From Hyphomonas sp. CY54-11-8 (GTDB taxonomy: Bacteria; Pseudomonadota; Alphaproteobacteria; Caulobacterales; Hyphomonadaceae), in contig NZ_AWFD01000001.1 in assembly GCF_000682735.1 (NCBI RefSeq), positions 558,001 through 622,000 of the forward strand: 64,000 nucleotides of DNA, given 5' to 3'. The notes under the pieces were generated by a model, which saw only the letters and a list, made by a program, of their open reading frames with translations, did no database searches and was not told the origin of the DNA. Shown piece after piece: positions 29,640 to 47,143 of the stretch; within the stretch, counting starts at the first letter, position 1; each line of letters begins with the position of its first letter. The translations under genes and the position numbers were made by a program.

Positions 29640-29720
29640 GTCTTGCACTTCGGTGCAGACGCCTCTGGCGTTTCCTCCCTTTGACTTCAAGGCCGCGCTT
29701 CACAGCGCGGCCCTTTTTTT
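29640..29720 (+). ncRNA. Candidate small RNA with three hairpins and intrinsic terminator
   Basis: About 80 bases with no reading frame. Hairpin 1 (29640-29660) is GTC-T-TGCAC, a TTCG tetraloop, GTGCA-GAC. Hairpin 2 (29659-29671) is ACGCC-TCT-GGCGT, overlapping the end of hairpin 1 by two bases. A single-stranded, pyrimidine-rich stretch TTTCCTCCCT follows (29671-29680), which could pair with a ribosome-binding site. A strong intrinsic terminator closes the unit. No plus-strand gene precedes this terminator, so it must belong to an RNA starting in this gap. The family is not identified. Confidence 0.6.
29691..29720 (+). terminator. Intrinsic terminator of the small RNA candidate
   Basis: A perfect 9-bp stem GGCCGCGCT / AGCGCGGCC with a TCAC loop is followed by C and seven T residues. 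This is the clearest rho-independent terminator on the plus strand of the window. Confidence 0.9.
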
Positions 29721-29943
29721 GTTCAAAGCCTATTTTCACTGTTTTTATTTGAATTTTACCGGAATTTTCAGGCGGTTTGCCTGAGTTCCACAGCCCAGAC
29801 AGGCGTGGTGGACATTCCGGCCCGCCGAATGCGGCTGTTAACCACGAAACCGGATGCCGTCCCGGAATTCTATTTGAGCCGTGCAAAGCTGCCATGCCAG
29901 GTTGCATGGGCGGTTTTTCGCAAAAACGGGCGTAGGTGAAAAA
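29721..29943. other. Gap between the small RNA candidate and the amidohydrolase gene
   Basis: No gene is seen. A bulged hairpin GCCATGC/GCATGGGC followed by GGTTTTT lies at about 29890-29918 on the plus strand and could be a second, weaker terminator. A short hairpin AGGTG/CACCT overlaps the stop of the minus-strand gene near 29944. Confidence 0.35.
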
Positions 29944-30849
29944 TTACACCTTTGGCAGAATCAGCGCCGTATCCAGCAAATTGGAGATGACAACCTCAAT
30001 GGCCCCGGCGACGTCGTCAAACCGGTCGAGGCGCTCGACGGAATGCTCATCCATGTACAGCCCGCGATTGATCTCGATCTGGAGGGCGTGGACGCCGCGC
30101 CGAGGCTTGCCATAGCGCCTTGTCGTGTAGCCGCCGGCATAGGGCGCGTTGCGCGCCACGCTGAAACCAAGTTCACGGAAGGCCCGTTCGGCGCGGCTGG
30201 TCAGGCGCGGATCGCAGGAGGCGCCGAACCGGTCCCCCAAGACAATGTCGGCCAGCGCGCGGCGGCCCGGCTGGACGGACGGCATGGAATGGCAGTCGAT
30301 CAGCACCGCATGGCCATGGATATCCCTGAGGGCGGCGAGTTCGTCGCCAAGGCAGGCATGATAGGCATCGTGAATGTGGCGGAGGCGGGCCTCGCCTTCG
30401 TCGGGGGTCAACCTGCGGCTGTAAATCTCGACCCCGCCGGCGGCGACACGGGGCAGGCAGCCAAGGCCGGCCTCGACCCGGGCCGTCGGCATCCCGCAGG
30501 CGCGCGGCGGCGGGCCGTCGAACATGGAGGCGTCGAGCTCCCGCGGGTCGCGATTGAGGTCGGCGACCGAGCGGCCGTACCGCGCAGCCAGCAGGCTCGC
30601 CCCTGCATCCGGCGCAGACCCGAACAATTCTTCGATGAAGGCATCTTCGGTGCGGCGCAGATCCATCACCGGAACCCTCAGCACTTCCAGCATGCTTTCA
30701 GGATATAGAGAGCCGGAATGCGGGGAGGCGAACAGGAAAGGCGCCTGCGGTCCGGCCGGCCGGGTCAGCGTGTAGGGCGGCTCGAAACTCTCCGCCCCAA
30801 ACGGGCCGGTCCTGACCGGTAAAGGGGAAAGGGGCGGGGTCGGGCGCAT
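29944..30849 (-). CDS. N-formylglutamate amidohydrolase family protein
   Basis: About 301 residues from ATG 30849. Family blocks are LFASPHSGSLYP with a metal-ligand His, DLNRDPRELDASMFDGP, VLIDCHSMPS, and the C-terminal RRGVHALQIEINRGLYMDE. The enzyme family hydrolyses N-formyl-L-glutamate in histidine breakdown, but no other hut genes are nearby. Divergence from cpdR at this spot is a conserved neighbourhood in many alphaproteobacteria (family knowledge), which suggests a separate role linked to that locus. Confidence 0.88.
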   Translation of the reverse strand: MRPTPPLSPLPVRTGPFGAESFEPPYTLTRPAGPQAPFLFASPHSGSLYPESMLEVLRVPVMDLRRTEDAFIEELFGSAPDAGASLLAARYGRSVADLNRDPRELDASMFDGPPPRACGMPTARVEAGLGCLPRVAAGGVEIYSRRLTPDEGEARLRHIHDAYHACLGDELAALRDIHGHAVLIDCHSMPSVQPGRRALADIVLGDRFGASCDPRLTSRAERAFRELGFSVARNAPYAGGYTTRRYGKPRRGVHALQIEINRGLYMDEHSVERLDRFDDVAGAIEVVISNLLDTALILPKV

Positions 30850-31010
30850 CGCACCTATCGTTTGCCTGTTCGTGGCAAGGTCAAGCCCCTCACGGCGTCT
30901 TGGGCAGCGGCAAGGTAAAAAAGACAGGCCAAATTTCGCAAAATTCACCCATGATTTACCCGGATCACTGTTTATGCTTAGGCTTGTAGGACGGACGAAG
31001 GGGGCCCCGG

Positions 31011-32228: not shown

Positions 32229-32303
<75 letters not shown>

Positions 32304-32431: not shown

Positions 32432-32516
32432 TGGTGCCCAGAAGAGGACTCGAACCTCCACGCCTTGCGGCACACGGACCTGAACCGTGCGCGTCTACCA
32501 ATTCCGCCATCTGGGC
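32432..32516 (-). tRNA. tRNA-Leu (anticodon CAG)
   Basis: The reverse complement folds as a class II tRNA: acceptor GCCCAGA/TCTGGGC, D arm with GGCGGAATTGGTAGACGC, anticodon stem CACGG/CCGTG around TTCAGGT (anticodon CAG), variable arm TGCCGCAAGGCGT, T arm GGAGG TTCGAGT CCTCT, and encoded CCA. It decodes CUG. A TTGACG at 32559-32564 (minus) with TTATAC 15 bases on may be its promoter, with short spacing. Confidence 0.96.
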
Positions 32517-32564: not shown

Positions 32565-32841
32565 GGGGAATCCCAGCCTTCATCAGCTTTGTTTCCGTCA
32601 TGGGGCTTGTCGCGGGGCCGTTGCCCGCGGGGGCGGGGTAACCGCACGTCTTCGGCCTGACTCTATTATATGGTGCAGGACCTTCCGGGGTGCGGCGCCG
32701 GGCGAAGGCGTGACCCGCATGGAAAGCGGCGCAATGGCTGTCATATTTATGGGCGAAGCAGCTTTTCGGTCAAGAATCCGCCATGTGGAGGTTGGGTCCG
32801 GGGCCGGAGCGGCCTAAATGAGACTCAACAGGAAAGAACCG
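32565..32841. other. Gap before the trehalose genes
   Basis: No gene is supported. The stretch is GC-rich with a short AT-rich word (TCTATTATATGG at about 32661-32672) that could be a promoter -10 region for the otsA operon. Confidence 0.35.
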
Positions 32842-34263
32842 ATGACAAGCGCCAACGCAGACACATCGGCCAAGCCTTCCGGGCGTCTGGTCGCCATATC
32901 CAACCGCACGGCTGCGGGCAGCGAGAGCAAGGCAGGCGGGCTCGCCGTAGCCCTCTGGGAAACTCTGGTTGAGACCAAGGGGCTGTGGATCGGCTGGTCG
33001 GGCCGGGTGCTGGATTTTGAAACCGCGCGGGTCAACTATGTCGAGGAGGAGGGGGTCCAGTTCGCGCTGAGCGACCTCTCACGCCGGCAGTATGACGGGT
33101 TCTATCTGGCCTATGCGAACTCGGTGTTGTGGCCGGTCATGCACAACCGGATCGACCTGGCGGTGTTCGAAGCAGACACGTATCGCAGCTACCGGTCCGT
33201 CAATGAGAAGTTTGCCCGGATCACGGTTCAGGAAGCCCGGCCGGAAGATTTCGTCTGGGTACATGATTATCATTTCTTCCTGCTCGGCCGGATGATGCGC
33301 CAGCGCGGCTGGCAGGGGCGCCTTGGCTGGTTCCTTCACATTCCATTCCCCGCGCCGGAGGCCTTCCGGGCCATCCCGCAGCACAGGGAACTGGGCGAGG
33401 CCATGTGCGCCTATGATGTGGTGGGTGTGCAGACCGGCAAGGACTTCTACAATCTGGCACGTTATCTCGAAGAGGAGTTCGGTGCAGAGGAATTGCCCGA
33501 TGGCCGTTTCCAGGTCGGCGAACGAACCGTCCGCCTGCTGCATTGTCCGATCGGGATTGATGTCGATGCCTTTGTCGAAGCGTCGACATGCGAAGACGCG
33601 CAGCTCGCTGCGTCAAAGCTCGACAGGTTCCTGGGCAACCGGCAGCTGGTGCTCGGCGTTGACCGGATGGATTATTCCAAGGGCCTGATCCAGCGCTTCG
33701 AAGGCATGGCGGAACTGTTTGACCGGCATCCGGATGTACACGGGCATATTTCCTTCACCCAGATTGCGCCACCTTCGCGCTCGGTTGTCGAAGGTTACCA
33801 GCAATTGCGCCAGCAGCTGGATGAATTGTCCGGCCGGATCAATGGCGATTATGGCGACCTCGACTGGATTCCCATTCGCTATCTCGCGCGGGGCTATGAC
33901 CGCGATGAGATCGCAGGGCTTTATCGGGCGGCGAAAGTGTGCCTCGTCACGCCGCTGCAGGACGGCATGAACCTGGTAGCCAAGGAATTCATCGCGGCGC
34001 AGGACCCAGAGGATCCCGGTGTGCTGGTCCTGTCCCAGTTTGCCGGCGCGGCCGAGCAGATGGGGGAAGCCCTGATCGTCAATCCCTACGATTCCGGCGC
34101 GATTGCTGAAGCCGTCTACAAGGCCATCCATATGCCGCTGGAGGAGCGTCAGGCCCGCTGGCGGACCCTGATGGATGGCATCCAGGCGCAGGATCTGATC
34201 TGGTGGCGGGAGCGGTTCCTGAACGCTGTTCCGGCCGATGCTGAGGTGCCGGTACTTTCATGA
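32842..34263 (+). CDS. otsA: Trehalose-6-phosphate synthase
   Basis: About 473 residues of a GT20 glycosyltransferase that joins UDP-glucose and glucose-6-phosphate. Motifs: [11 protein letters not shown] at the N-terminus, [55 protein letters not shown] and [23 protein letters not shown] 32842 has AGGAAAG upstream; ATG 32818 is in frame but has poorer context. The end overlaps otsB by ATGA, so otsA-otsB-GH15 is a coupled operon for trehalose production and glucan turnover. Confidence 0.95.
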
Positions 34264-34991
34264 CAGAACAGATCATCGCGCCGCCGCCGCTGACCGCGGG
34301 CGATGCGCTATTTCTAGATTTTGACGGAACGCTGGCCGGGCTACAGGACGATCCCGATACGGTGTTTCTGGCGGCCGGCATGGATAACGTCCTGGAGGCG
34401 ATTGGCCGCCGGCTGGAAGGGGCGTTGGCGATCTTGTCCGGCCGTGATGCAGGTGATCTCGCGCGCCGGGTGCCGGGCGGGCTGTGGCGGATCGGCAATC
34501 ATGGCCTGATCCCGCTGGCGCCGAATGCAGACCCGCCGGAAGACCGCGCTGCAGCGCCGGATGCGGTGCGCGGCGTGATCGAAAAGATCAGCGCGATGTT
34601 TCATGGCACACGTGTCGAGACCAAAGGCCCGGTGCTGGCCCTGCATTACCGGCAGGCGCCGGGAGCGGTGGACGACCTTGGCAATGCGCTGGCCGAGGCC
34701 GGCCTGTCAGGCGCGGGATACCGGATCCAGCATGGCAAGTTCGTCTTCGAGGCAAAGCCTGAAGATGCCAACAAGGGCCGCGCTCTGGCCCGAATGATGC
34801 AGGAAGTGCCCTTTTCCGGGCGGCGCCCGGTCATGATTGGTGACGACACGACCGACGAAGATGCTTTCCGGGCTGCGAACAGCCTGGGCGGGTTGACGGT
34901 CAAGGTCGGCGCGGGCGACACCCTCGCCCGGTACCGGCTGAAAGATGTCGATGCCGTGCATGCGTATCTGAAGGAGCTGGCTGGGACATGA
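34260..34991 (+). CDS. otsB: Trehalose-6-phosphate phosphatase
   Basis: A 243-residue HAD-fold phosphatase that dephosphorylates trehalose-6-phosphate. Motif I is ALFLDFDGTLAG, motif II is ALAILSGRDAGDLARR with GNHGL following, and motif IV is PVMIGDDTTDEDAF. The start overlaps the otsA stop and the end overlaps the GH15 start, both ATGA. Length and motif order are normal. Confidence 0.95.
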   Translation: MTEQIIAPPPLTAGDALFLDFDGTLAGLQDDPDTVFLAAGMDNVLEAIGRRLEGALAILSGRDAGDLARRVPGGLWRIGNHGLIPLAPNADPPEDRAAAPDAVRGVIEKISAMFHGTRVETKGPVLALHYRQAPGAVDDLGNALAEAGLSGAGYRIQHGKFVFEAKPEDANKGRALARMMQEVPFSGRRPVMIGDDTTDEDAFRAANSLGGLTVKVGAGDTLARYRLKDVDAVHAYLKELAGT

Positions 34992-36757
34992 GCGGACTGG
35001 ACCTTGGCATTGTGGGCAATGGCACGATTGCCGCCCTGATCAATTCACGTGGCGATTATCAATGGTCCTGCCTGCCGCGGTTCGATGGCCAGCCGGTGTT
35101 CAACCAGCTTCTGGGCGGCGGCGGTGCCTTTTCCGTCTGGATGGAAGACCTCGTCTCGCGCACCCAGGCCTACGACCACAACAGCGCCATCCTGCGGACG
35201 CGCCTCGAATCCCGTGATGGCGCCATCGTGGAAATCGTCGATTTTGCCCCGCGATTCGAGAATCAGGGGCGGATGTTCCGTCCGGCGGCGCTGGTGCGCC
35301 GGTTCCGGGTTCTGGCGGGCACGCCGCGGATGCGGATCACGCTGACCCCGGAAACCGACTGGGGCGGGCGCAAGCTGAAGCCGGTCAGGGGCGTCAACCA
35401 TGTCCGCTTCGTGGATGAGGAACTTGCCTTCCGCGTCACCACGGATGCGCCGGTCTCCTATATCCTGTCGGGGACCAGCTTCATTCTGGACCGGGAGGCC
35501 GCTTTCATTCTGGGAGCGGACGAATCCCTGTCCGATCATCCGGAGGTCATTGCGCGCGACTGGGAAGAGAGGACCCGCCTCTACTGGAAGCGTTGGGCCC
35601 GTAGCCTGGCAGTGCCGTTCGAATGGCAGCAGGCCGTGATCCGTGCCGCAATTACGCTGAAGCTCTGCGTCTACGAGGAAACCGGCGGCATCGTCGCGGC
35701 CCTCACGACCTCCGTCCCGGAACATGAAGGCTCGGAGCGGAACTGGGACTACCGCTATTGCTGGATCCGGGACGCGTATTTCACGGTCACCGCGCTGAAC
35801 CGGCTGTCCGGCATGGGGACGCTGGAGCACTATATGCGCTGGGTACGGAACATCGTGGCTCAGTCGAAAGGCGGCCATATCCAGCCGGTTTACGGGATCG
35901 GGCTGGAAGCGGACCTGACAGAGGATTTTGCCAGGGAGCTTCCCGGCTATCGCGGCATGGGGCCAGTCCGTGTCGGCAACCAGGCGGCTGAGCACGTCCA
36001 GCATGATGTCTATGGTCAGGTTGTCCTGGGCGTTGCGCAGAGTTTCTTCGATACGCGCCTCATGAAACGGCCCGGCCTGACGGAATTCGAGCAGCTGGAG
36101 CCGGTGGGCGAGCGCGCCTTCGCCGTGCATGACACGCCGGATGCCGGCATCTGGGAATTCCGTACGATTGCCCATGTGCACACGTCTTCCGCGATCATGT
36201 GCTGGGCGGCCTGTGACCGGCTGGCGAAGATAGCCGCGCATCTGGGGCTGCCCGCGCGGGCGGATTACTGGCGCGAGCGGGCCGACATCATTCACGGGAC
36301 CATCCTGGAGAAGGCCTGGAATGAGGACATTGGTGCGTTCACCGCGGCCTTTGGCGGGGAAGACCTTGATGCGTCTGTCCTGCTGATGGCGGAGATCGGT
36401 TTCATCGCGGCAGACGACCCGCGCTATGTGTCTACCGTGCAGGTGATCAACCGGGACCTGCGCGAAGGCGACCATGTCTATCGCTACAAGGTGACCGACG
36501 ATTTCGGGAAGCCGAAAACCGCCTTTACCGCCTGTACTTTCTGGTTGGTGGATGCCCTGCACCGGATCGGCGAGACCGAGGAAGCGCGGCGCGTCTTCGA
36601 AGCGCTGCTGGCGGCCCGCAACCATCTGGGCCTCTTGTCAGAGGATGTCGATACCGACACCGGAGAGCTGTGGGGGAACTTCCCGCAGACCTATTGCATG
36701 GTCGGCATCATCAATTCGGCAGCCTTGCTTTCACGGCCCTGGAGCCAGGCGATGTAG
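34988..36757 (+). CDS. Glycoside hydrolase family 15 protein (glucoamylase/trehalase-like)
   Basis: A 589-residue cytoplasmic GH15 protein. The N-terminal beta-sandwich domain includes LGIVGNGTIAALINSRGDYQWSCLPRFDG, and the (alpha/alpha)6 barrel has RNWDYRYCWIRDAYFTV with catalytic-type acid residues, and QTYCMVGIINSAALLSR at the end. Some bacterial GH15 enzymes cleave trehalose, others glucans. Coupling to otsAB suggests trehalose or related glucosides as substrate; this is inference. Confidence 0.9.
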   Translation: MSGLDLGIVGNGTIAALINSRGDYQWSCLPRFDGQPVFNQLLGGGGAFSVWMEDLVSRTQAYDHNSAILRTRLESRDGAIVEIVDFAPRFENQGRMFRPAALVRRFRVLAGTPRMRITLTPETDWGGRKLKPVRGVNHVRFVDEELAFRVTTDAPVSYILSGTSFILDREAAFILGADESLSDHPEVIARDWEERTRLYWKRWARSLAVPFEWQQAVIRAAITLKLCVYEETGGIVAALTTSVPEHEGSERNWDYRYCWIRDAYFTVTALNRLSGMGTLEHYMRWVRNIVAQSKGGHIQPVYGIGLEADLTEDFARELPGYRGMGPVRVGNQAAEHVQHDVYGQVVLGVAQSFFDTRLMKRPGLTEFEQLEPVGERAFAVHDTPDAGIWEFRTIAHVHTSSAIMCWAACDRLAKIAAHLGLPARADYWRERADIIHGTILEKAWNEDIGAFTAAFGGEDLDASVLLMAEIGFIAADDPRYVSTVQVINRDLREGDHVYRYKVTDDFGKPKTAFTACTFWLVDALHRIGETEEARRVFEALLAARNHLGLLSEDVDTDTGELWGNFPQTYCMVGIINSAALLSRPWSQAM

Positions 36758-36780: not shown

Positions 36781-36883
36781 GCGCTGGTGCGGCTTTCTTC
36801 AATGCGGGGCGACCTCAGCAGGGCACAGCTATGCCTGATAGCACGCCTTGACCGGGCACAGCCTTGCGTGCGTTGTTGTGATT

Positions 36884-38317
36884 ATGGGAGAGGCACCTCA
36901 ATTCTTTGATGAAATGGACGGGTTCGACGGAATCGTGCGCGAACCTTATTCGGCATATTCGGACTGGCTGCAGGAGATGAGCCGTCCGGCCCTTCTGAAG
37001 AAGTCCGCTGAAGCGCAGGCCTTCTTCCGGCGTACCGGCATCACGTTCAATGTCTATGGCGAAGCCGAAGCGGACGAGCGCCTGATCCCGTTTGACCTGA
37101 TCCCGCGCATCATCGGAGCGGGGGAGTGGGCGAACCTGGTTCGCGGGATCGAGCAGCGGGTGAAGGCCATCAATGCCTTCCTGCACGACATCTATCACCG
37201 GCAGGAGATTATCCGCGCGGGCCGGGTGCCCGAACGCCTGATCCGTGAGAACGACGCCTTCCTGCCGCGCATGATCGGCATGGACCCGCCTGGCGGCATC
37301 TACACACACATTGTGGGTGTGGATCTGGTGCGGACCGGGCCGAACGAATTCTTCGTGCTGGAGGACAATGCCCGCACGCCGAGCGGTGTTTCCTACATGC
37401 TGGAAAACCGCGAGACGATGCTGAAGATGTTCCCGGAACTCTTCTCGCACATCCGGGTGCAGCCGGTTCAGCAATACCCGACCATGTTGCGCCGGTCCCT
37501 GGAGCGGTGCGGGCCGCCTGCGGCAGATGGCAACCGGCCGACTGTGGCTGTGCTGACGCCGGGCATCCATAACTCGGCCTATTTCGAACACGCCTTCCTC
37601 GCAGACCAGATGGGGGTCGAGCTGGTGGAAGGGCACGACCTGCGGGTCACCGATGGGCGTATCGCGATGCGGACGACCCGGGGGTATGAACCTGTGGACG
37701 TCATCTATCGCCGGATCGATGATGACTTCCTCGACCCATTGAATTTCCGCTCGGACTCCTTGCTGGGTGTCGCGGGCATCTTCGACATTTACCGTTCAGG
37801 CGGGATCACGATCGCCAATGCTCCGGGCACGGGCATCGCCGACGACAAGGCGATTTACTCCTACATGCCGGAGATCGTCGAATTCTACACGGGCCAGAAG
37901 CCGATCCTGCAGAACGTGCCGACCTGGCGATGTGCAGAAAAGGATGCGCTGGCTTACGTTCTGGACAATCTGGAAGAACTGGTCGTGAAGGAAGTCCACG
38001 GGTCAGGCGGATATGGCATGCTGGTCGGTCCCGCAGCCAGCAAGGCGGAGCTCAGGGCCTTCCGCGCCAAGCTGACCGCGAAGCCGGAAAACTATATCGC
38101 CCAGCCGACGCTGGCCCTGTCAACCGTCCCTGTGCTGACAAAATCAGGTCTTGCCCCGCGTCACGTTGATCTGCGCCCATTCGTGCTCGTCTCCCCGGAA
38201 GGAGTGGAGGTGACGCCCGGCGGGCTGACGCGCGTGGCCATGAAGAAAGGCTCCCTGGTGGTGAACTCCAGCCAGGGGGGCGGAACCAAGGACACCTGGG
38301 TCCTGAAGGGGGATTAG
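36884..38317 (+). CDS. Circularly permuted type 2 ATP-grasp ligase
   Basis: About 477 residues from ATG 36884. Blocks typical of the family: RLIPFDLIPRIIGAGEWANLVRGIEQRVKAINAFLHDIYH, LIRENDAFLPRM, FFVLEDNARTPSGVSYMLENRE, DVIYRRIDDDFLDPL, and VVKEVHGSGGYGMLVGP plus DLRPFVLVSPEGVEVTPGGLTRVA. Comparative studies predict such proteins to make peptide or amide bonds on unknown substrates, in a conserved cluster with alpha-E, transglutaminase and Anbu genes, as here. It is five bases from the alpha-E gene. Confidence 0.92.
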   Translation: MGEAPQFFDEMDGFDGIVREPYSAYSDWLQEMSRPALLKKSAEAQAFFRRTGITFNVYGEAEADERLIPFDLIPRIIGAGEWANLVRGIEQRVKAINAFLHDIYHRQEIIRAGRVPERLIRENDAFLPRMIGMDPPGGIYTHIVGVDLVRTGPNEFFVLEDNARTPSGVSYMLENRETMLKMFPELFSHIRVQPVQQYPTMLRRSLERCGPPAADGNRPTVAVLTPGIHNSAYFEHAFLADQMGVELVEGHDLRVTDGRIAMRTTRGYEPVDVIYRRIDDDFLDPLNFRSDSLLGVAGIFDIYRSGGITIANAPGTGIADDKAIYSYMPEIVEFYTGQKPILQNVPTWRCAEKDALAYVLDNLEELVVKEVHGSGGYGMLVGPAASKAELRAFRAKLTAKPENYIAQPTLALSTVPVLTKSGLAPRHVDLRPFVLVSPEGVEVTPGGLTRVAMKKGSLVVNSSQGGGTKDTWVLKGD

Positions 38318-38322
38318 AGGTG

Positions 38323-39264
38323 ATGCTGGGTCGCACAGCCGCTGGCCTCTTCTGGCTGGCCCGTTATCTGGAGAGGGCGGAGAATACCTCGCGCCTGGCC
38401 GAGGCAGGGTTTCGCCTCGCGCTCACCCGGGCCGAGTCCGATACGGAAGAATGGCGGTCCGTCATTACGACGGCTGGTTGCCAGCAGAGCTATCTGGAAA
38501 AGCACGAGACGATCCGGTCGGACAAGATTTTGGACTTCATCCTGCGCGACAAGGAAAATCCCAACAGCGTGTTGTGTGCCTTCCATACCGCGCGCGAGAA
38601 TGCGCGGATGACACGGACAGCGCTGACGCGGGAAGTGTGGGAAGCGATCAATGATGCCTGGATGAGCGTACGCGATGCCCTGCGCCGTCCGATCCCGGAA
38701 CGCGACTTGCCGGAAATCCTGTCACTGGTGCGCCGGCAGGGGGCACAGGTCCGCGGCGCGATCACCGGCACGATGCTGCGCAATGATATCTACAATTTCA
38801 TCCAGATCGGCACATTGGTGGAGCGGGCTGACAACACGTCCCGTATTCTGGATACGAAGTATTATGTGCTGTTGCCGTCCAGCGCATCGATCGGGTCCTC
38901 GCTCGACAATGTGCAGTGGGAAATGATCCTCCGCTCAGCCTCCGCAGAGCGCAGCTTCTACTGGCTGCATGGTGGAACCGTCAGCCCGCCAGCCATCGCA
39001 GATTTTCTGATCTTTGATGCGCGTCTGCCGCGGTCTCTGGCATTCTGCTATGATATGATCACGGAATATCTCGGCAGGCTTGCCGAGGAGTATGGCGAAA
39101 GCACGCCGGCACATGAGTTGGCGATTCGGCAGGAAAACCGGCTGACAGCCTTGAACATTGCGCGGGTCTTTGAGGAGGGGCTCCACGAATTCCTTACCAG
39201 CTTCATGGCGCAGAATGCGGCGTTCTCCGCCCAGATCGAAACCGATTACAGGTTCAATGAATAG
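38323..39264 (+). CDS. Alpha-E domain protein
   Basis: About 313 residues, almost all helical. The N-terminus MLGRTAAGLFWLARYLERAENTSRLAEAGF is the family signature, and the family's second block is TGTMLRNDIYNFIQIGTLVERADNTSRILDTKYY. ATG 38323 fits the family start better than GTG 38320. Known only as the constant partner of circularly permuted ATP-grasp proteins; biochemical role unknown. It is separated from its neighbours by three to five bases. Confidence 0.92.
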   Translation: MLGRTAAGLFWLARYLERAENTSRLAEAGFRLALTRAESDTEEWRSVITTAGCQQSYLEKHETIRSDKILDFILRDKENPNSVLCAFHTARENARMTRTALTREVWEAINDAWMSVRDALRRPIPERDLPEILSLVRRQGAQVRGAITGTMLRNDIYNFIQIGTLVERADNTSRILDTKYYVLLPSSASIGSSLDNVQWEMILRSASAERSFYWLHGGTVSPPAIADFLIFDARLPRSLAFCYDMITEYLGRLAEEYGESTPAHELAIRQENRLTALNIARVFEEGLHEFLTSFMAQNAAFSAQIETDYRFNE

Positions 39265-39267
39265 GCC

Positions 39268-40071
39268 ATGAGACTCCGCATCGATCATACTACCGTCTAC
39301 AATTACGAGACAGCGTCGAGCTACGCGCTGCAGCAGGTGCGCAAACGTCCTCATGATACGGATGCGCAGACGGTCATTTCCTGGGATCTCGTCCTGGAAG
39401 GGGCCAAGAGCGAGGCGAGATATATGGACCATCATGGCAACCATGTCGAACTCGTCTCCATGGAACCGGGAGCAAAGCGCGTCTCGATCTCCTGCCAGGG
39501 TGAAGTGGAAACACGGGACACGGCGGGCATACTGACTAGCAACCGGATGGTGCCGCCCCTCTGGCTCTATCGCCGGTTCACCCCGTTGACAAAGGTGGGG
39601 AAGGGCGTGCGTGGACTCGTTGCCGAACTTGGCAAGGATCCGGAACTCAATCTCGAAACCCTACATGCCCTGATGAACCTGATCGCAGACTCGGTCGTCT
39701 ATGACATTGAACCGACAGGGCCGAACACTTCAGCCGAGGAAGCCCTCGAACTTGGTCATGGCGTTTGCCAGGACCATGCGCACATTTTTGCGGCAGCTGC
39801 GCGGCTGATGGGTTTCCCGGCCCGGTATGTCGGCGGATACATGATGATGCTGGACCGAGTGGATCAGGAAGCAGGCCATGCCTGGGCGGAAGCCTGGGTC
39901 GAGGGGCTCGGCTGGGTCGGATTTGATGCAGCCAACAGGGTTTGTCCCGACGAACGGTACATTCAGGTTGCAACCGGCCTCGACTACCGCGAAGCTGGCC
40001 CACTGACAGGGGTGATGTATGGCGGCGAGCAGGAGGTGCTGTCCGTCAATGTCCAGGTCCAACAACAATAA
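39268..40071 (+). CDS. Transglutaminase-like cysteine peptidase
   Basis: A 267-residue protein. N-terminal beta domain MRLRIDHTTVYNYETASSYALQQVRKRPHD, then the papain-like core: GHGVCQDHAHIFAAAARLMGFPARYVGGYM with the catalytic Cys, AGHAWAEAWVEGLGWVGFDAAN with the catalytic His and Asp. All three residues of the triad are present, so it is likely active, probably cleaving amide bonds made by the ligase of the same operon. No signal peptide is seen. Confidence 0.92.
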   Translation: MRLRIDHTTVYNYETASSYALQQVRKRPHDTDAQTVISWDLVLEGAKSEARYMDHHGNHVELVSMEPGAKRVSISCQGEVETRDTAGILTSNRMVPPLWLYRRFTPLTKVGKGVRGLVAELGKDPELNLETLHALMNLIADSVVYDIEPTGPNTSAEEALELGHGVCQDHAHIFAAAARLMGFPARYVGGYMMMLDRVDQEAGHAWAEAWVEGLGWVGFDAANRVCPDERYIQVATGLDYREAGPLTGVMYGGEQEVLSVNVQVQQQ

Positions 40072-40092
40072 ACGGGTCCGAAGAGGTTCGAA

Positions 40093-40830
40093 GTGACATA
40101 TTGCGTGGCGATGCGGCTCAACGCGGGGCTCATCTTCATGTCAGACACGCGCACGAATGCGGGTGTCGACAACATTTCCAGGTTCCGGAAGATGTTCACC
40201 TGGGAGGAGCCGGGCGAGCGGGTGATTACCGTTCTGACAGCCGGGAACCTTGCGACATCCCAGGCTGTGATCAGTCTTCTCGACGAGCGGACCAAGGCGC
40301 CGCATGAACGCCGGCCCAGCCTGCTGGAAGCGCCGACCATGTTCCAGGTCGCCAACATCATCGGTGACACGCTCAAGGAAGTGATCAAGACCCAGAAGAT
40401 GACCGGCCCGGAATCGGAGGCCGACTATGGCGCAACGATGATCGTGGGCGGGCAGATCACCGGCATCGAGCCGCGCCTGTTCATGATCTATCCGGAAGGC
40501 AATTTTATCGAGGCGAGCGAGGAGACACCCTTCTTCCAGATTGGTGAAACCAAATATGGCCGGCCAATCCTGCTGCGCGCCTATGACGCCGGCATGAGTT
40601 TCGAGGAAGCGATCAAGCTTCTGTACGTCTCCTTCGACTCGACCCTGAAGGCGAACCTGTCGGTCGGTATGCCGCTTGACCTTCAGGTCGTGGAGCAGGG
40701 CGCCCTGAAGGTGACGCATCGCCGCCGTATCGAAGAGGATGATCCTTACTTCCAGACCGTTTCGAACAGCTGGGGAGACGCGCTGAAGCTGGCCTTCAAG
40801 TCTTTGCCGGATTTCTCGTTTACAGACTGA
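40093..40830 (+). CDS. Anbu proteasome-related peptidase
   Basis: A 245-residue Ntn-hydrolase related to HslV and 20S beta subunits. GTG 40093 gives M-T-Y-C, so removal of the first residue exposes the nucleophile Thr. Further blocks: MRLNAGLIFMSDTRTNAGVDNISRFRKMF, DYGATMIVGGQITGIEPRLFMIYPEGNFI, TPFFQIGETKYGRPIL, and SVGMPLDLQVV. Anbu (ancestral beta subunit) forms ring assemblies and is always found with these neighbours. Its substrates are unknown; degradation of peptides tagged by the ATP-grasp ligase is a hypothesis. Confidence 0.93.
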   Translation: MTYCVAMRLNAGLIFMSDTRTNAGVDNISRFRKMFTWEEPGERVITVLTAGNLATSQAVISLLDERTKAPHERRPSLLEAPTMFQVANIIGDTLKEVIKTQKMTGPESEADYGATMIVGGQITGIEPRLFMIYPEGNFIEASEETPFFQIGETKYGRPILLRAYDAGMSFEEAIKLLYVSFDSTLKANLSVGMPLDLQVVEQGALKVTHRRRIEEDDPYFQTVSNSWGDALKLAFKSLPDFSFTD

Positions 40831-40834
40831 CGGA

Positions 40835-41800
40835 TCAGACCAGCACGTGGTCCGGTACGTGCTCCCGGTAGAGCTTCTTGCCGAGCTCGACGCGCTGTTC
40901 TGCATTGAGCCCTTCGGTGTCGGCCTTCATGCAGGCCTCGATGAGCGGACGCACACCCATTCTGTTTGCCACCTGAATGGCGAGGCCGGGACGGGCGTTC
41001 AGCTCCAGGAGCATCGGGCCCTTTCCCTTGTCGAGCACAATGTCGGCACCGAGATAACCAAGGCCGGTCACGTCATAGGCTTTGGCGGCCATCAGCAGCA
41101 TCTCATCCCAATGCGGCACTGAGATATTGCTGAGCGGGTTGGCCGTATCCGGATGGATGTCGGTCGTCTTGCCTTTTTGCATGCCATAGAGGGTCCGGCC
41201 GGTGACGAGGTCCAGGCCGACGCCGACTCCACCCTTGTGAAGGTTTGCCTTGCCGTCCGACTCCGCTGTCGGCAGCCGTACCATTGCGACAAAGGGAATG
41301 CCACGCAGCACGATGATGCGAATGTCCGGCACCCCACCGAAACTGATCGGGTCGAACACATCGTCGAACTTCACCCGGTATTCGATCATGGCGATGTCGG
41401 GCTGGCCCGACAGGGAATACATGCCTGACAGGATATTGTTGACGTGGAATTTCAGGTCTTCGAGCAATGCACGCTGGCCATTGGAGCGCCGCCAGCCACC
41501 GCGCATCGGCCCGAGGATCACCTGGATGCCATTGCCCTGCGACCCATTGGCCGGCTTGATGACGCAGCCGTCTGGATGATTGAGCAGGGTTTCGAGTTTG
41601 CGCATTTCCGCCGGGCTGCGGATGAGGCCGTAGAGTTCGGGCGTCTGGATGCCGGCGGCATTGGCCAGGCGCTTGGTTTCCGTCTTGTCGTCGACCAGGC
41701 GCATCAGGCGCCGCGGATTATAGTCGTTGATGAGACGGAGGTTCCGCTCATTGATGCCGAGCACGCCGGCCCGGCGAAGGCCAAGCCACGTCTTGATCAT
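40835..41800 (-). CDS. RimK-like alpha-L-glutamate ligase homologue
   Basis: A 321-residue ATP-grasp enzyme. Blocks: LGINERNLRLINDYNPRRLMRLVDDKTETKRLANAAGI, CVIKPANGSQGNGIQVILG for ATP binding, GVPDIRIIVLRGIPFVAMVRLP, and LGADIVLDKGKGPMLLELNARPGLAIQVAN with metal-binding residues. Family members are predicted to ligate Glu or similar amino acids to peptides. The gene overlaps the upstream membrane-protein gene by ATGA and ends four bases from the convergent Anbu gene. Confidence 0.9.
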   Translation of the reverse strand: MIKTWLGLRRAGVLGINERNLRLINDYNPRRLMRLVDDKTETKRLANAAGIQTPELYGLIRSPAEMRKLETLLNHPDGCVIKPANGSQGNGIQVILGPMRGGWRRSNGQRALLEDLKFHVNNILSGMYSLSGQPDIAMIEYRVKFDDVFDPISFGGVPDIRIIVLRGIPFVAMVRLPTAESDGKANLHKGGVGVGLDLVTGRTLYGMQKGKTTDIHPDTANPLSNISVPHWDEMLLMAAKAYDVTGLGYLGADIVLDKGKGPMLLELNARPGLAIQVANRMGVRPLIEACMKADTEGLNAEQRVELGKKLYREHVPDHVLV

Positions 41801-43335
41801 TTCGGTTCGGCTTCCTTGGCGAGCTCCCGGAAGCGCCGGATCTCACTCAGCCTCAGGCCGGTATACTTGCCCATCAGCAGGCAGGCCGCCATCAGGACGA
41901 GAAGAAGTTCAGGGAAATTGAACAGCAGGAACTCAATATGCTTGTTCGTCATCACCAGGTAGGAGAGCGAGGCCACAAGCATCGAGCCTGCGCCGGCCTT
42001 GATGGCATCTTCCGGTGAATACTCTTCCCACATGATCGACATGCGTTCGATCGTCATGGTCAGGATGACCATCGGGAACAGCGAGATCGAAAGTCCCATC
42101 CGCATGTTGGCGCTGTTGAACATCTGCGCGATCACCGCCATGCAGATCACAATGAAGATCAGCACCACAGCCAGCCTCGGAACAAGCAATAATCGGAGCT
42201 TCTCAAGATAGAAGCGCATGGCCAGGCCAAGCGCGACGAGCAGGGTGAACAGGATCAGGCCGTTCAGCAGGGCTGTCTCACGGAACGCGATGCCGATCAG
42301 GATCGGCATGAAGGTTCCGAGCGTTTCGATGCCGATGAACTGGCGCATGAAGACGAGCAGCACGATGCCGGCCGGAATGGTGATCAGCACCTGATAGACG
42401 AGCTGTGTGGTGACGGGCAGCCGGTCGAAGCTGAACAGTTCGACCGGTGTGCGGTCAGCCCGCGCCGCCTTGCGCATAACGTCAGAGGCCGAGGAGTCGA
42501 TCGGCTGGATCGAGACCTGCGGTTCGAAGTCGAACACACCGTCGGCGCGGATCATTTCCTCGGTGCCATACCAGATGGTGAAGAACTCTTTCGGATCGGA
42601 ACCGATGAAGTAGCGCTTGTCGCGCCCGTCGACATGGTACTCCAGCCAGTGCTGCACTTCCGTGCGGCGACGGGCTTCGTCGAGGTAAACGCCATTGGCG
42701 ACCCGCGCGCGGATCCCCTGGCTCTGAAGCGCCTCTGCGGCAAGTGTCAGACGGTCGAGCGGCGGCGGCAGGACGGGCAGAAGCGCCTCGATCTCGTCGG
42801 CGTCCTTCTGGACGAAGATTTCCTGCAGGATCAGCTCAGCGAGCGAGTCATCATCGGCAGAGCGGCGGCGCATGTCGGAAGACCAGACGAGAAAGGCCTG
42901 CCGCTCGAGGTCATTGAGGGATTCCGGTGGGGCGCGGTCAGCCGGTCGGTGCATTTCAGCGGGCAGGGGAGAGCGCTGGGTTTCCCCTTCGAGACGCGCG
43001 CGGTAGCGCAGCACCTTGCGGTCGTTGGGATAGCGATAGGTCCAGATCGCCTTGCGGCCATTGTCGTCGTCGGTTTCCAGGCGCAGCCCGAAGGCGCCGT
43101 TGTAATACTGTTCCTGCGAAACCCTGCGCGTATCGCTGTTGGACGGGACAAAGGTCTCGATCCGCACCGGCTGGTTGGCGGTATCAAAGTCGAGATAGAT
43201 TTCGAAATCCCAGGTTGTCGTCTGGGTGCCCGGCGTGAGCGGGTAGTTGTACTGGAACACCTTGATGCCGAAGATCGTCAGCGCGATCGCGGTCAGCACA
43301 AAGGCCAGAAGACGGGTGTGAAAAGTGCTAGTCAC
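41797..43335 (-). CDS. Seven-helix membrane protein with inactive transglutaminase domain (UUP1 family)
   Basis: About 512 residues from GTG 43335, whose start overlaps the stop of the protease gene. A first membrane helix (about residues 8-28) leads to a large outside domain that resembles transglutaminases but has no recognisable catalytic Cys/His arrangement, then a C-terminal bundle of about seven helices (LITIPAGIVLLVFMRQFIGIETLGTFMPILIGIAF onward). The family occurs with RimK-like ligases and retropepsin-like proteases, exactly as here, and probably moves or senses peptide-like compounds. Confidence 0.88.
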   Translation of the reverse strand: MTSTFHTRLLAFVLTAIALTIFGIKVFQYNYPLTPGTQTTTWDFEIYLDFDTANQPVRIETFVPSNSDTRRVSQEQYYNGAFGLRLETDDDNGRKAIWTYRYPNDRKVLRYRARLEGETQRSPLPAEMHRPADRAPPESLNDLERQAFLVWSSDMRRRSADDDSLAELILQEIFVQKDADEIEALLPVLPPPLDRLTLAAEALQSQGIRARVANGVYLDEARRRTEVQHWLEYHVDGRDKRYFIGSDPKEFFTIWYGTEEMIRADGVFDFEPQVSIQPIDSSASDVMRKAARADRTPVELFSFDRLPVTTQLVYQVLITIPAGIVLLVFMRQFIGIETLGTFMPILIGIAFRETALLNGLILFTLLVALGLAMRFYLEKLRLLLVPRLAVVLIFIVICMAVIAQMFNSANMRMGLSISLFPMVILTMTIERMSIMWEEYSPEDAIKAGAGSMLVASLSYLVMTNKHIEFLLFNFPELLLVLMAACLLMGKYTGLRLSEIRRFRELAKEAEPK

Positions 43336-43852
43336 GCTCAGGTACGTTACATTCGTCGTCGGCAATGAAAGTCGATGCGGAATCGACAAGAACGCGGGAC
43401 GCGAGGAATTCGCGGCCGATCAGGATGTCGTATTCAAAGTCCTCCCGGTCGGCAAGATTGACTTCAGCCAGACCGCGAACGCCGCCCACACAGATGGGAA
43501 GGTGAATCACGGGCCGCCGGATGGTGCCGCCTGTCTTCAGTTTGATCAGGGCGAAACGGCGGACGTCCTGATCGTAGCGAACGGTGCGGCCGTTCTTGCC
43601 GCGCAGCCGGAAAGTCACCCAGTCATCCTTACCGGATTTCTTGTACACCTTCACATCGCGACCATAGACCGAGGAGGAGTCAGCGCCGGTATCAAGTTTC
43701 CCTTTCATTTCAAGGCCTAACTTGCCGACGTGAACGTCTTCGACATAGCCCAGAACTGTCATGTCATCGCGCCCTTCGCGTTCGGCCATGGCAGGTGCAG
43801 GCACCAGCGCCATAACGAGTGCGGCACAGATTGGCAGTCTCAACAGTTTCAC
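43328..43852 (-). CDS. RimK-associated retropepsin-like protease (DUF785 family)
   Basis: About 174 residues from GTG 43852, with a signal peptide (LLRLPICAALVMALVPAPAMA). The aspartic-protease-like motif is KGKLDTGADSSSVYG, followed by FRLRGKNGRTVRYDQDVRR and the C-terminal DILIGREFLASRVLVDSAS. These proteins are annotated as ATP-dependent zinc proteases by homology but look like single-domain retropepsins. First gene of the minus-strand ligase operon. Periplasmic location is predicted, unlike many family members. Confidence 0.87.
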   Translation of the reverse strand: MKLLRLPICAALVMALVPAPAMAEREGRDDMTVLGYVEDVHVGKLGLEMKGKLDTGADSSSVYGRDVKVYKKSGKDDWVTFRLRGKNGRTVRYDQDVRRFALIKLKTGGTIRRPVIHLPICVGGVRGLAEVNLADREDFEYDILIGREFLASRVLVDSASTFIADDECNVPERD

Positions 43853-44059
43853 GGGGGACCCCCTCCTTCCTGAGCTGTCGCGCGGCAGTCGGCTTAGCAT
43901 GTGGATGCGTGGTGCGATAGACACTCCACTCGGCGCGCAGGGGCGGCACAAACACCAGATTCGTGGCGAAAAATGGACGAGGGAAGATGATCAGCAGTCC
44001 GCTGCGCCTGCCGTTCCGCTTCTCGCGCGACAAAGAGGCTCTGCAGGCCTTATCCGCGC

Positions 44060-45343
44060 TCAGGCGGAAACGGGGAAAACCGGCCAGGTGTCGAGGATCG
44101 CGCCGTCTTCATAGACGGCAATGTCTCCGAATTGCAGGAAGACCGCTTCGCTCTGTTGCGGGCGGAGGAAAACGAACTCGTCCGTCTGGATGGACAGTTC
44201 AGGCCCGCCATTCAGCATTTCCTGGTTCGAGGAACGTCCGAACGTCTTGTTGTACTCCAAACCGGGCGGATCGACCGGGTCGGCAAGCCAATGACCGCCA
44301 TGGATGAAGACGGTCTTCTTCGAATTGGGATTCCACGCAGAGGCAGTTCCGCTCGCAAACTCAAGGCCCGGCAGGCGGGTCTTGTCGAACGATTTGATGA
44401 CCGGTGTCGCGATAAAGCTGGCTGGTTGGTGCGGTTCCAGAAGTTCCGTGTCGAAATGCGTCGGTTTCACCAGGCAGGACCCTGCGGACACCTCATTCGC
44501 GATATCGGTGGACTGGTAGTAGCGATAGGTCGGGCTACCGGCTGCGTTCCGGGTCAGGCCCGCCATTTGGTCACCGCCGATCAGCGTGGCCGCCTGTTCC
44601 AGGGCGGAGGTGTAGGTGTTCCACGCGCCTTTCAGCGCCTTGTCCCGCCAGCCAAGCGCGGTCGGCAGGGAAGGGATGTGCGGCTCATAGCCCATGAAAC
44701 CCTTGAATTCGAGATTTGGGTCCGCCTTGATCGCTTCGATGGTGGCACCAAGGGCAGGCCCCGGCTCAAAGCCGCCGCGGTGCAGGCCGACGTCGAGCTC
44801 GAGGACAATCTTCAGGGGCCGGCCGATGTCCGACGCGAGCGCGGCATATTGCTGAAGCCGCTCCGGCGTATCGATCAGCCATTCGATATTGTCCGCTGCT
44901 GCGCTGGCATGTGCGGGAAGCGTCTCGAAATAGTGACGGGCGGCGCGCACCGGAAGAGGCTTGCCCACCAGTTGGCTTGCATCCGGCATGTCGACGGAGA
45001 GCTGGGACAACATGGGCTGGTTGAACGTCATCAACCGGTTGGTGCCGGAAAGATCGCGGATATGAGACAGCAGTCCGATGGAGGGAAGGGATTTCGCAAC
45101 GATGCGGTAGCCCATGCCCGCGGGCAGGTGCGTCTTCAGGGTTCTGACATTATCCGAGAGACGCTTCCTGTCGATCACGAGCGTTGGCCAGGCGATGCCG
45201 GCGCCGATCAGGGCAGCCTGAACGCTGAGAAAGTACGGATCGCGCGGCCCACTATGGTCGTGAGGCTTGTTCATCAGGACGGCTCCTCCGGCAGCGACGG
45301 CGGCGCCGCCAAGAAACAGGGTACGGCGCGAAAGTTCAGGCAT
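44060..45343 (-). CDS. Tat-exported DSD1/alanine-racemase-like PLP enzyme
   Basis: About 427 residues from ATG 45343. A twin-Arg signal (LSRRTLFLGGAAVAAGGAVLM) is present. The fold-type III PLP barrel is seen in WPTLVIDRKRLSDNVRTLKTHLPAGMGYRIVAKSLPS, whose Lys is the likely PLP anchor, then VLELDVGLHRGGF, FKGFMGYEPHIPS and a C-terminal GHWLADP. Related enzymes are D-threonine aldolases and D-serine dehydratases. A periplasmic, Tat-exported member is unusual. The start overlaps the stop of the lactone oxidase gene. Confidence 0.82.
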   Translation of the reverse strand: MPELSRRTLFLGGAAVAAGGAVLMNKPHDHSGPRDPYFLSVQAALIGAGIAWPTLVIDRKRLSDNVRTLKTHLPAGMGYRIVAKSLPSIGLLSHIRDLSGTNRLMTFNQPMLSQLSVDMPDASQLVGKPLPVRAARHYFETLPAHASAAADNIEWLIDTPERLQQYAALASDIGRPLKIVLELDVGLHRGGFEPGPALGATIEAIKADPNLEFKGFMGYEPHIPSLPTALGWRDKALKGAWNTYTSALEQAATLIGGDQMAGLTRNAAGSPTYRYYQSTDIANEVSAGSCLVKPTHFDTELLEPHQPASFIATPVIKSFDKTRLPGLEFASGTASAWNPNSKKTVFIHGGHWLADPVDPPGLEYNKTFGRSSNQEMLNGGPELSIQTDEFVFLRPQQSEAVFLQFGDIAVYEDGAILDTWPVFPVSA

Positions 45344-46760
45344 CGAAGTCCACTCCGAACAGGTGTGCAAGGTGCGGGTTCAGAAATTTCCCTTCCGGAT
45401 CGAGGGCGGCGCGCAGGTCAAGGAAGTTCTGGAATTCCGGATAGAGCGCGATCAGGTCTTCCTTTCCGAGGGAATGCAGCTTGCCCCAGTGCGGACGTCC
45501 GCCATGGGCACGGTGAATGGGTTCCAGCGTGGAGAAGAAATAGTCGTAGGGCTCGTCCACAGCGGCATGCGTGGCAATCGACATGCGTGGACCGTCATTG
45601 AACGGGCTGAGCCACGCATTGTCAGGTGCCGTGATCCGGATTTCCATCGGGAAGAAAGTGTCGTTGCGGGATTCCAGCGCCGCGATGATCTCCCGCAGGC
45701 AGGCGAGGCCGTTCTCAAGCGGAATGTGGTATTCCATCTCGTTGAACTTGGTTGGCCGCGCGGTGGCAAGCAGCTTCCAGTAAGCGTCTGAACTTTCCTC
45801 GATCTGGCCCTTCGGCAGGCTTCCGGCGGCGATGCGCCGGCGCAGCCAGGATGACCAGCCGAACACGTCGCGCAGTTCCTTGAGACCTGCCAGCGTGTCT
45901 TCGTCTTCGTCGGAAACCCGGCCGGTTACCTCGCCATCGAAAATATCGTGCGAGATCCCGGCAGCATACCCTGTGAACGGGAAGTAGTAGAATTCGAAAT
46001 TCCGGTGTTGTTCCGAAAGATCCATCACGCGGTCGAGCAGCGTGTCCAGCTGTTCCACCCAGACCCGGCGTTTCAGATTGTAGGACGGCACGCATTTCAG
46101 CGTGTACTGAGTGATGACCCCCAATGCGCCGAGCGAAACCTGGCCGGCGGAGAACAAATCCGGGTCCGAAGCGGCGGTTACATCGCGGGCGGTGCCGTCT
46201 GCCGTGACGATCCGGAAGCCTTCGATGTGTGCGTGCAGGGGCTTGAGCATCCGGCCTGTGCCATGGGTGGAGGTCGAAAATGATCCCGCGAGGGTTTGCA
46301 CATCGACATCTGGCAGGTTCAGAAGCGCGAGACCGGCGGCGTCCAGTTCACGCGCTGCCTGGCGAATTCGTGTGCCAGCCCCGAACGTGGCCATTCCAGT
46401 TGCTGTGTCAGACGAAACCAGTCCTGAAAAGCGGCTGGCATCCACGATCAAATGTTCTGAGGGGACGAGACCGGTGAAGGAGTGTCCGCTGCCGACAGGG
46501 CGCACGCGGCGTGCTTCGGCGAGTGCGCTTGCAAGGTCAGCTTCGGTGGCTGGTACTGCGATTTGACTTGGTGTGGATCGCTGTATGCCGGACCAGTTGG
46601 ACCAGGCCACTTCACCTTCCGGGGCAGGGGGCAGGTCCGGGCTGTATCCGTCGCGCTTGAAATCCTTCATGCTCCAGCTTGCATACTGGACGCCGGGAAT
46701 GGCGACGGCGGCAGCGAGCCCGGCCGATCCGAGCAGAATGGCGCGCCGGGTGGTGCTCAT
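45336..46760 (-). CDS. Tat-exported FAD-linked sugar-lactone oxidase (ALO/GULO-like)
   Basis: About 474 residues from ATG 46760. A Tat signal MSTTRRAILLGSAGLAAAVAIPG precedes a VAO-type FAD domain: SQIAVPATEADLASALAEARRVRPVGSGHSFTGLV, LPDVDVQTLAGSFSTSTHGTG, and GALGVITQYTLKCVP. The C-terminal domain ends with HWGKLHSLGKEDLIALYPEFQNFLDLRAALDPEGKFLNPHLAHLFG, typical of D-arabinono-1,4-lactone oxidases. The coupled cytochrome c gene suggests that electrons go to the respiratory chain instead of oxygen. Confidence 0.87.
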   Translation of the reverse strand: MSTTRRAILLGSAGLAAAVAIPGVQYASWSMKDFKRDGYSPDLPPAPEGEVAWSNWSGIQRSTPSQIAVPATEADLASALAEARRVRPVGSGHSFTGLVPSEHLIVDASRFSGLVSSDTATGMATFGAGTRIRQAARELDAAGLALLNLPDVDVQTLAGSFSTSTHGTGRMLKPLHAHIEGFRIVTADGTARDVTAASDPDLFSAGQVSLGALGVITQYTLKCVPSYNLKRRVWVEQLDTLLDRVMDLSEQHRNFEFYYFPFTGYAAGISHDIFDGEVTGRVSDEDEDTLAGLKELRDVFGWSSWLRRRIAAGSLPKGQIEESSDAYWKLLATARPTKFNEMEYHIPLENGLACLREIIAALESRNDTFFPMEIRITAPDNAWLSPFNDGPRMSIATHAAVDEPYDYFFSTLEPIHRAHGGRPHWGKLHSLGKEDLIALYPEFQNFLDLRAALDPEGKFLNPHLAHLFGVDFDA

Positions 46761-47143
46761 GACTGGCCCTCCGTTGCCATGAATTCGATGAGTGACTTGA
46801 AATCGTCGTCTGTGCAGTCCGGGCAGTACCCCATGGCGGGCATCGTACCGCGGCCGGAGTGAATCGAGGTCAGCAAACCGTCCATTCCACGCTGCTCGAA
46901 CCGCATTTCCCACGCCGCCGAGTGGCCGGTCAGCGGGGCGCCCAGTCCATTCAGGGCATGGCAGGCCCGGCAGGACCGGTCATAGATGGCGGCGAGACCG
47001 GCATCTGCTGGGACCATGGTTTCGGCGAGGGCGATGTGAGCGGCGTCGGGTTCGACGATTTCCGGCGCGGCGATCTCTTCCGCCCCCCGGGAACAGGCAC
47101 ACATACATGCCAGCACCAGCGTCGCTGTGAAAGTCCTCACCAT
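46757..47143 (-). CDS. Exported c-type cytochrome
   Basis: About 128 residues from ATG 47143, with a signal peptide (VRTFTATLVLACMCAC), possibly a lipoprotein. The haem site is SCRACHALNG and a distal Met may be in TMPAMGYCP. Its stop overlaps the start of the lactone oxidase gene (ATGA), so it is the first gene of the three-gene operon and probably the oxidase's electron acceptor. A short inverted repeat (47179-47194) lies upstream. Confidence 0.85.
   Translation of the reverse strand: MVRTFTATLVLACMCACSRGAEEIAAPEIVEPDAAHIALAETMVPADAGLAAIYDRSCRACHALNGLGAPLTGHSAAWEMRFEQRGMDGLLTSIHSGRGTMPAMGYCPDCTDDDFKSLIEFMATEGQS

Follow-up and report, generated by a model that had tools for sequence, protein, structure and literature searches.

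Anbu and rlo-like operons that meet tail to tail in one Hyphomonas lineage probably reflect inherited gene order

Do two peptide-ligase and protease systems whose genes end within a few bases of each other work on the same substrate? The question is raised by a 64,000-nucleotide stretch of Hyphomonas sp. CY54-11-8 (contig NZ_AWFD01000001.1, positions 558,001 to 622,000; here, the window), in which an operon for the proteasome-fold hydrolase Anbu on the plus strand meets a minus-strand operon homologous to rloABC of Pseudomonas aeruginosa. Anbu ends at 40830 and rloC at 40835, a stop-to-stop distance of 4 bp, as an earlier note made from the sequence alone had reported. That note also proposed that both sets act on one peptide product. 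The evidence assembled here points elsewhere. With a probability of roughly 80%, these are two separate known systems that became neighbors once, in the ancestor of one Hyphomonas lineage and together with a trehalose module, and that have since been inherited as a 10-gene block.

The two sets co-occur at chance level

RloB (PF14402) and Anbu served as markers for the two sets in overlapping samples of 101 genomes from the family, 385 from the class and 299 from the phylum. In the family, 51 genomes had RloB and 86 had Anbu; both were present in 40, against 43.4 expected (one-sided Fisher p 0.99). Both markers were found in 6 genomes of the class sample (5.5 expected from 19 with RloB and 112 with Anbu; p 0.49) and in 17 of the phylum sample (16.4 expected from 48 and 102; p 0.48). 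These counts include odd marker cases, namely RloB frames of 815-854 or 374-385 amino acids and Anbu matches below 200 bits (24 in the class sample and 2 in the phylum sample). Removing only the long RloB frames from the family left 35 genomes with both (35.8 expected). Without the weak Anbu matches the class sample gave 6 (4.3 expected), and 4 (3.4 expected) once odd RloB cases were removed too, while the filtered phylum sample gave 15 (15.4 expected). One-sided p values for all filtered tests were 0.25 to 0.76, and the result was unchanged. When its 38 Hyphomonas were left out of the family, both sets occurred in 22 of 63 genomes against 25.7 expected, a slight avoidance (two-sided p 0.03). 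Each set was found without the other in many genomes. Co-occurrence in the samples is no higher than chance at any of the three levels, and the excess that the earlier note had proposed to look for as a check on a shared product appeared in none of them.

In the genomes sampled, the junction is confined to one Hyphomonas lineage

All 18 RloB-positive Hyphomonas sampled carry the Anbu and rlo sets tail to tail, and the two stand side by side in H. jannaschiana, H. beringensis, H. atlantica and H. pacifica. Elsewhere, among genomes with both sets, they were adjacent in 0 of 22 (family), 0 of 4 (class) and 0 of 14 (phylum), so that the survey of adjacency suggested in the earlier note places the junction in one Hyphomonas lineage only. 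The 22 non-Hyphomonas genomes of the family comprise 6 with the sets 284-308 kb apart on the same contig, one (G038) with about 1.2 Mb between them and 15 with the sets on different contigs. The nearest non-Hyphomonas pair, in the phylum sample, has RloB and Anbu about 36 kb apart in two Pseudomonas-like genomes (G531:C1 and G535:C1).

The block runs otsA-otsB-GH15-ATP-grasp-Alpha-E-transglutaminase-Anbu and then, on the opposite strand and from the junction outwards, rloC-rloB-rloA. This whole order was read at 6 loci by handle and at 12 named loci, with three genomes common to both; L085, a contig of 5.5 kb, covers just the stretch from rloB to Alpha-E. The distance from otsA to Anbu, downstream of it, is about 7.2 kb in each of the 18 RloB-positive Hyphomonas. 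Over 19 loci the gap between the Anbu and rloC stops ranges from -4 to 388 bp, in convergent orientation.

Other Hyphomonas have the parts of the block singly. Among 20 RloB-negative genomes, 19 have an Anbu match (the exception is G095). At the 10 such loci read, the Anbu operon stands alone, with no ots, GH15 or rlo genes within flanks of about 1 to 9 kb, and otsA-otsB-GH15 stands alone in some other Hyphomonas (5 loci read), apart from the Anbu operon. Four rlo-less Hyphomonas (L128, L129, L131 and L132) have their stand-alone ots module about 200 to 230 bp from tRNA-Phe. Outside the Hyphomonas block, searches of 80 Anbu-positive genomes, each from a different genus, found PF00982 (the OtsA family) in 40; among 53 RloB-positive genomes, of which 10 belong to the family of Hyphomonas itself, 12 had it. 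A general association of Anbu or rlo with trehalose genes was considered and rejected: PF00982 was linked to neither set, the minimum same-contig distance being about 74 kb (G128). A partial, non-exhaustive literature search found no paper treating the Anbu and rlo sets together, and the matches listed for Hyphomonas with trehalose held nothing on this region.

Promoter-like elements differ and gene order is retained at background level

Each operon is preceded by a promoter-like element of its own. TTGM-N-GTGYGTT (36848..36874, plus strand) lies in the 126-bp spacer before the ATP-grasp gene, 9 bp 5' of its start. It was found 9 or 12 bp 5' of that start at 15 of 18 block loci (12 of 15 distinct genomes), before otsA at 0 of 18 loci and before rloA at 0 of 18 loci, with 3 further occurrences in 732 kb on both strands. 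By eye, a similar element precedes stand-alone Anbu operons at L071 and L124-L126 (genomes G064, G043, G052 and G078). CTATCG-N-SRTGBTA (43895..43920, minus strand) lies 5' of rloA at 17 of 18 loci (14 of 15 distinct genomes) and is not matched anywhere else within these loci. Because both motifs were derived from these very sequences, the counts describe conservation and are not a blind test. These elements suggest separate promoters for the Anbu and rlo operons. The window was also searched for GGAAC-N15..18-CGTT, which we take to be the motif of the general stress sigma factor; it gave 2 matches where 1.96 were expected by chance, both of them away from the block, and such sites were rejected as an explanation.

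The history of the block was read from two trees and one synteny control. In a tree of Anbu and the transglutaminase (38 rows), the 18 block members group together with support of 100/100. A gyrB tree (30 rows, 13 of them block) recovers the same two block clades, with a weakly supported union (72/22). The trees fit a single origin of the Anbu-rlo pairing. On the right flank, one clade has alanine-racemase-like and flagellar genes and the other has genes like those for PfaD and polyunsaturated-fatty-acid synthase (some of the names were assigned by eye); the flagellar genes of G084 are at a distance of about 200 kb from its block. On the left flank of the second clade, probing 1 to 2 kb of sequence with genes of the window gave no match. 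Between the genome of the window (G000) and G084, 201 of 205 adjacent orthologue pairs were kept, or 192 of 196 when the block's nine pairs were set aside. Among pairs on opposite strands or with gaps above 80 bp, 121 of 124 were kept (118 of 121 with the block excluded). Since 192 of 196 pairs outside the block were retained, retention of the junction is unremarkable for genomes at this evolutionary distance.

Weighing the explanations

Inherited gene order is the best reading of the pairing because the sampled genomes give no sign that the sets belong together. The pairing would then be functionally neutral, with no need for a product common to Anbu and rlo. Several points weigh against this reading. 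The Fisher tests on co-occurrence ignore relatedness, and draft genomes in which the sets fall on separate contigs (15 of 22, 2 of 4 and 8 of 14 in the three samples) were scored as non-adjacent. The synteny control is a single genome pair, 462 kb of G000 against 800 kb of G084, and counts only pairs that have both orthologues in the compared stretches and gaps of at most 1.5 kb. The junction was retained by 18 of 18 RloB-positive Hyphomonas although the right flank differs between the two clades, as do the 1 to 2 kb of left flank that were read. Finally, trehalose is tied to osmotic stress, as is rlo, and their sharing of a block may therefore not be chance.

This last point leads to a reading in which the trehalose module, Anbu and rlo were brought together as an island for osmotic or envelope stress, each with its own promoter. 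It would account for otsA, Anbu and RloB standing in one block in every RloB-positive Hyphomonas, and for a block interior that is intact although the right flank differs by clade. It is nevertheless unlikely: in the 40 Anbu-positive and 12 RloB-positive genomes that have PF00982 it is linked to neither set, the trehalose module and the Anbu operon lie apart in other Hyphomonas (5 trehalose and 10 stand-alone Anbu loci), and the block is retained at background level. Very doubtful is a further version, a single osmotic and envelope-stress island in one lineage in which Anbu would act on cytoplasmic glutamyl peptides with rlo-type chemistry and RloB, as a dead relative of the transglutaminase, would bind the shared substrate. 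The flanks that differ between clades would also fit a mobile block that moved from one of the two Hyphomonas clades to the other, and in the window two tRNA genes, tRNA-Val (32229-32303, plus strand) and tRNA-Leu (32432-32516, minus strand), lie just 5' of otsA. Such movement is quite unlikely, since the Anbu-transglutaminase and gyrB trees recover the same two block clades and no tRNA gene lies within 1 to 2 kb upstream of otsA at 14 other block loci (12 distinct genomes). The proposal of the earlier note, that the Anbu and rlo sets act in series on the same peptide in two compartments, draws on the parallel make-up of the sets, each of which combines an ATP-grasp protein, a protein of transglutaminase fold and a peptidase, and on the homology described below between RloB and the Anbu-operon transglutaminase. 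We consider it highly improbable: co-occurrence is not above chance in any of the three samples and falls below expectation in the family without Hyphomonas, many genomes carry one set alone, adjacency was seen in one lineage only and is kept at background level, the promoter-like elements differ and the genes converge.

Genes of the Anbu set and its neighbors

The seven genes of the two operons were confirmed, by open reading frames and profile matches, at the places and in the families that the earlier note had given. The Anbu operon consists of genes for a circularly permuted ATP-grasp protein (36884..38317; PF14403, CP_ATPgrasp_2, 549 bits; PF04174, 481 bits), an Alpha-E domain protein (38320..39264; PF04168, 293 bits), a transglutaminase-like protein with an intact Cys-His-Asp triad (39268..40071; PF01841, Transglut_core, 88 bits; PF08379, Bact_transglu_N, 62 bits) and Anbu itself, an N-terminal nucleophile hydrolase of proteasome fold (40093..40830; PF00227, Proteasome, 34 bits), all on the plus strand. 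The triad residues C167, H204 and D220 are invariant across 14 transglutaminase sequences. In Anbu, T2, D18 and K33 are invariant in 8 of 8 sequences and correspond to the candidate catalytic Thr1, Asp17 and Lys32/33 in the numbering of an excerpt of PMC6376114. The four genes and their order are identical to those of the Anbu operon of Yersinia bercovieri and Pseudomonas as described in portions of PMC6376114 and PMC5666114, and candidate catalytic Thr, Asp and Lys residues are present here as well; compared with that operon, part of Hyphomonas adds otsA-otsB-GH15 upstream and the rlo-like operon downstream. For Yersinia Anbu, the excerpted text of PMC6376114 reports that peptidase or amidase activity was undetected with the substrates tried. 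Proteins of the Anbu set have Kyte-Doolittle maxima (19 residues) of 0.95 to 1.44, with no strong hydrophobic stretch. The operon may be a cytoplasmic set for amide ligation and hydrolysis, in which the ATP-grasp protein would join an amino acid or peptide and the transglutaminase and Anbu would rearrange or cut the product. In the class sample, 23 genomes have Anbu matches of 115 to 144 bits, a weaker group that is possibly the second Anbu subtype.

The trehalose module, on which the earlier note is silent, lies directly 5' of the Anbu operon on the same strand. Its first gene, at 32842..34263 (in a reading frame that opens at 32818), is presumably otsA, for trehalose-6-phosphate synthase, a name that draws on PF00982 matches in related genomes. 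The next, at 34260..34991, is kept in the block and is taken from its position to be an otsB-like gene for trehalose-6-phosphate phosphatase. A trehalase-like GH15 glycoside hydrolase follows at 34988..36757 (TreH1 model 289 bits, under the cut-off of 820). About 2 kb upstream of the block there is a gene for an N-formylglutamate amidohydrolase family protein (29944-30948, minus strand; PF05013, 223 bits), and a suhB/mmgR-type small RNA lies at 29654-29727 (plus strand; RF00519, 55 bits). Beyond rloA, genes for alanine-racemase-domain and D-arabinono-lactone-oxidase-like proteins (44060-46763, minus strand) follow in the first clade and are absent from the second-clade flanks read. By eye, genes of the PfaD and polyunsaturated-fatty-acid-synthase type come after the block in the second clade (L065, 12846-18999; L066, 13221-18662).

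The rlo-like set and its kinship to the transglutaminase

The minus-strand operon has the order rloA-rloB-rloC. The rloA homologue (43328..43852, with a GTG start) encodes a retropepsin-like peptidase with a signal-like N terminus (PF05618, Zn_protease, 83 bits). The product of the rloB homologue (41797..43389) has an inactive transglutaminase domain fused to seven transmembrane helices (PF14402, 7TM_transglut, 288 bits; PF14400, Transglut_i_TM, 75 bits), and that of the rloC homologue (40835..41800) is a RimK-like ATP-grasp protein (TIGR02291, 381 bits, cut-off 314; ATPgrasp_ST, 276 bits). For RloB the true start is probably a GTG near 43335 rather than the TTG at 43389, because many relatives begin about there and residues 1-19 of its structural model have a predicted local distance difference test (pLDDT) score below 50. 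The narrow NCBIfam models score under their cut-offs for RloA (RloA2, 88.9 of 250 bits; RloA3, 87.6 of 210; RloA1, 81.5 of 280) and for RloB (NF052267, 287.6 of 900). RloC passes TIGR02291, and we therefore regard the operon as homologous to rlo and not as a proven orthologue.

The operon resembles P. aeruginosa rloABC (PMC12239564) in its gene order, in a retropepsin that carries KLDTGA and a pair of arginines at a spacing of 23 residues, in a seven-transmembrane inactive transglutaminase and in a RimK-like ATP-grasp protein. Sequence identity to a Pseudomonas-like RloB (L140) is 29 to 31 percent. In RloA, K52-L-D54-T-G-A, R113 and R136 are invariant in 11 of 11 sequences; mapped by spacing, K52, D54, R113 and R136 match the active-site DTG and the polyglutamate-binding K46, R114 and R137 of the P. 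aeruginosa protein. According to passages of PMC12239564, polyglutamate is cut in vitro by P. aeruginosa RloA, cells in hypoosmotic medium need their three RloA proteases, and the triple protease mutant is rescued by loss of rloB or rloC. In the same passages Anbu is not involved in the genetic role of the rlo set, and rlo-like operons are called widely conserved in Gammaproteobacteria. The RimK/RimB system for glutamylation of ribosomal S6, as outlined there, likewise has an ATP-grasp protein and a retropepsin peptidase (PMC12239564); the RimB model reaches only 43.6 of 200 bits here, and the present operon has in addition a membrane protein and a signal-like N terminus.

Hydropathy (Kyte-Doolittle, 19 residues) gave one hydrophobic stretch in RloA, at the N terminus, and several in RloB. 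Judged solely from its hydrophobic, signal-like N terminus, RloA may be secreted. The division into a cytoplasmic Anbu set and a membrane or periplasmic rlo set that the earlier note had drawn is supported by these profiles. The rlo-like operon would then be an envelope system for a glutamyl-type chain that is synthesized by RloC in the cytoplasm, transported or retained at the inner membrane by RloB and trimmed by RloA after its secretion; this order is proposed because of the P. aeruginosa genetics, as reported in part of PMC12239564, and the residues conserved here.

The contrast drawn in the earlier note between an active-type transglutaminase in the Anbu operon and an inactive one in RloB was borne out: by eye, no Cys-His-Asp triad was seen in an alignment of 23 RloB sequences. 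An AlphaFold model of RloB (mean pLDDT 79, predicted template modeling score 0.55) had a single Foldseek match at E of at most 0.001, the transglutaminase-like PDB entry 3isr (3 chains, E 1.7e-8 to 2.7e-7), and a sequence search of the PDB with the transglutaminase of the Anbu operon likewise had 3isr as its top match (E 9e-12). A direct alignment of the two profiles with hhalign gave a probability of 92 (E 6e-7). The RloB sequence profile found no 3isr-type transglutaminase in the PDB (best match 6g49, E 0.0047), so the tie is one of fold and hhalign. From the shared 3isr match and the profile alignment it follows that the periplasmic domain of RloB, itself inactive, is related to the transglutaminase of the Anbu operon encoded on the opposite strand. 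This kinship is homology of parts and not evidence for a shared product. A relation of the seven-transmembrane domain to the PgsC/CapC poly-gamma-glutamate exporters found no support: no family of that type was among the RloB matches in Pfam and NCBIfam at a maximum E of 10, a setting at which HMMER filters drop most weak matches, and each of the three significant Foldseek matches was to 3isr. Long frames of 815 to 854 amino acids match PF14402 at only 140 to 151 bits and perhaps represent a different architecture of the seven-transmembrane domain; they occur in G030, G038, G041, G053, G062, G073, G083, G089 and G091, and in G319 and G408 of the class sample.

Implications

Both systems were already known. 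The locus joins a known Anbu operon to an rlo homologue, and in the samples the pairing is specific to one Hyphomonas lineage. A tempting but unsupported clue to the substrate of Anbu is thereby removed. Rlo-like operons are now placed in Hyphomonas and other Alphaproteobacteria, and named Hyphomonas strains in which Anbu and rlo adjoin permit the two systems to be tested together.

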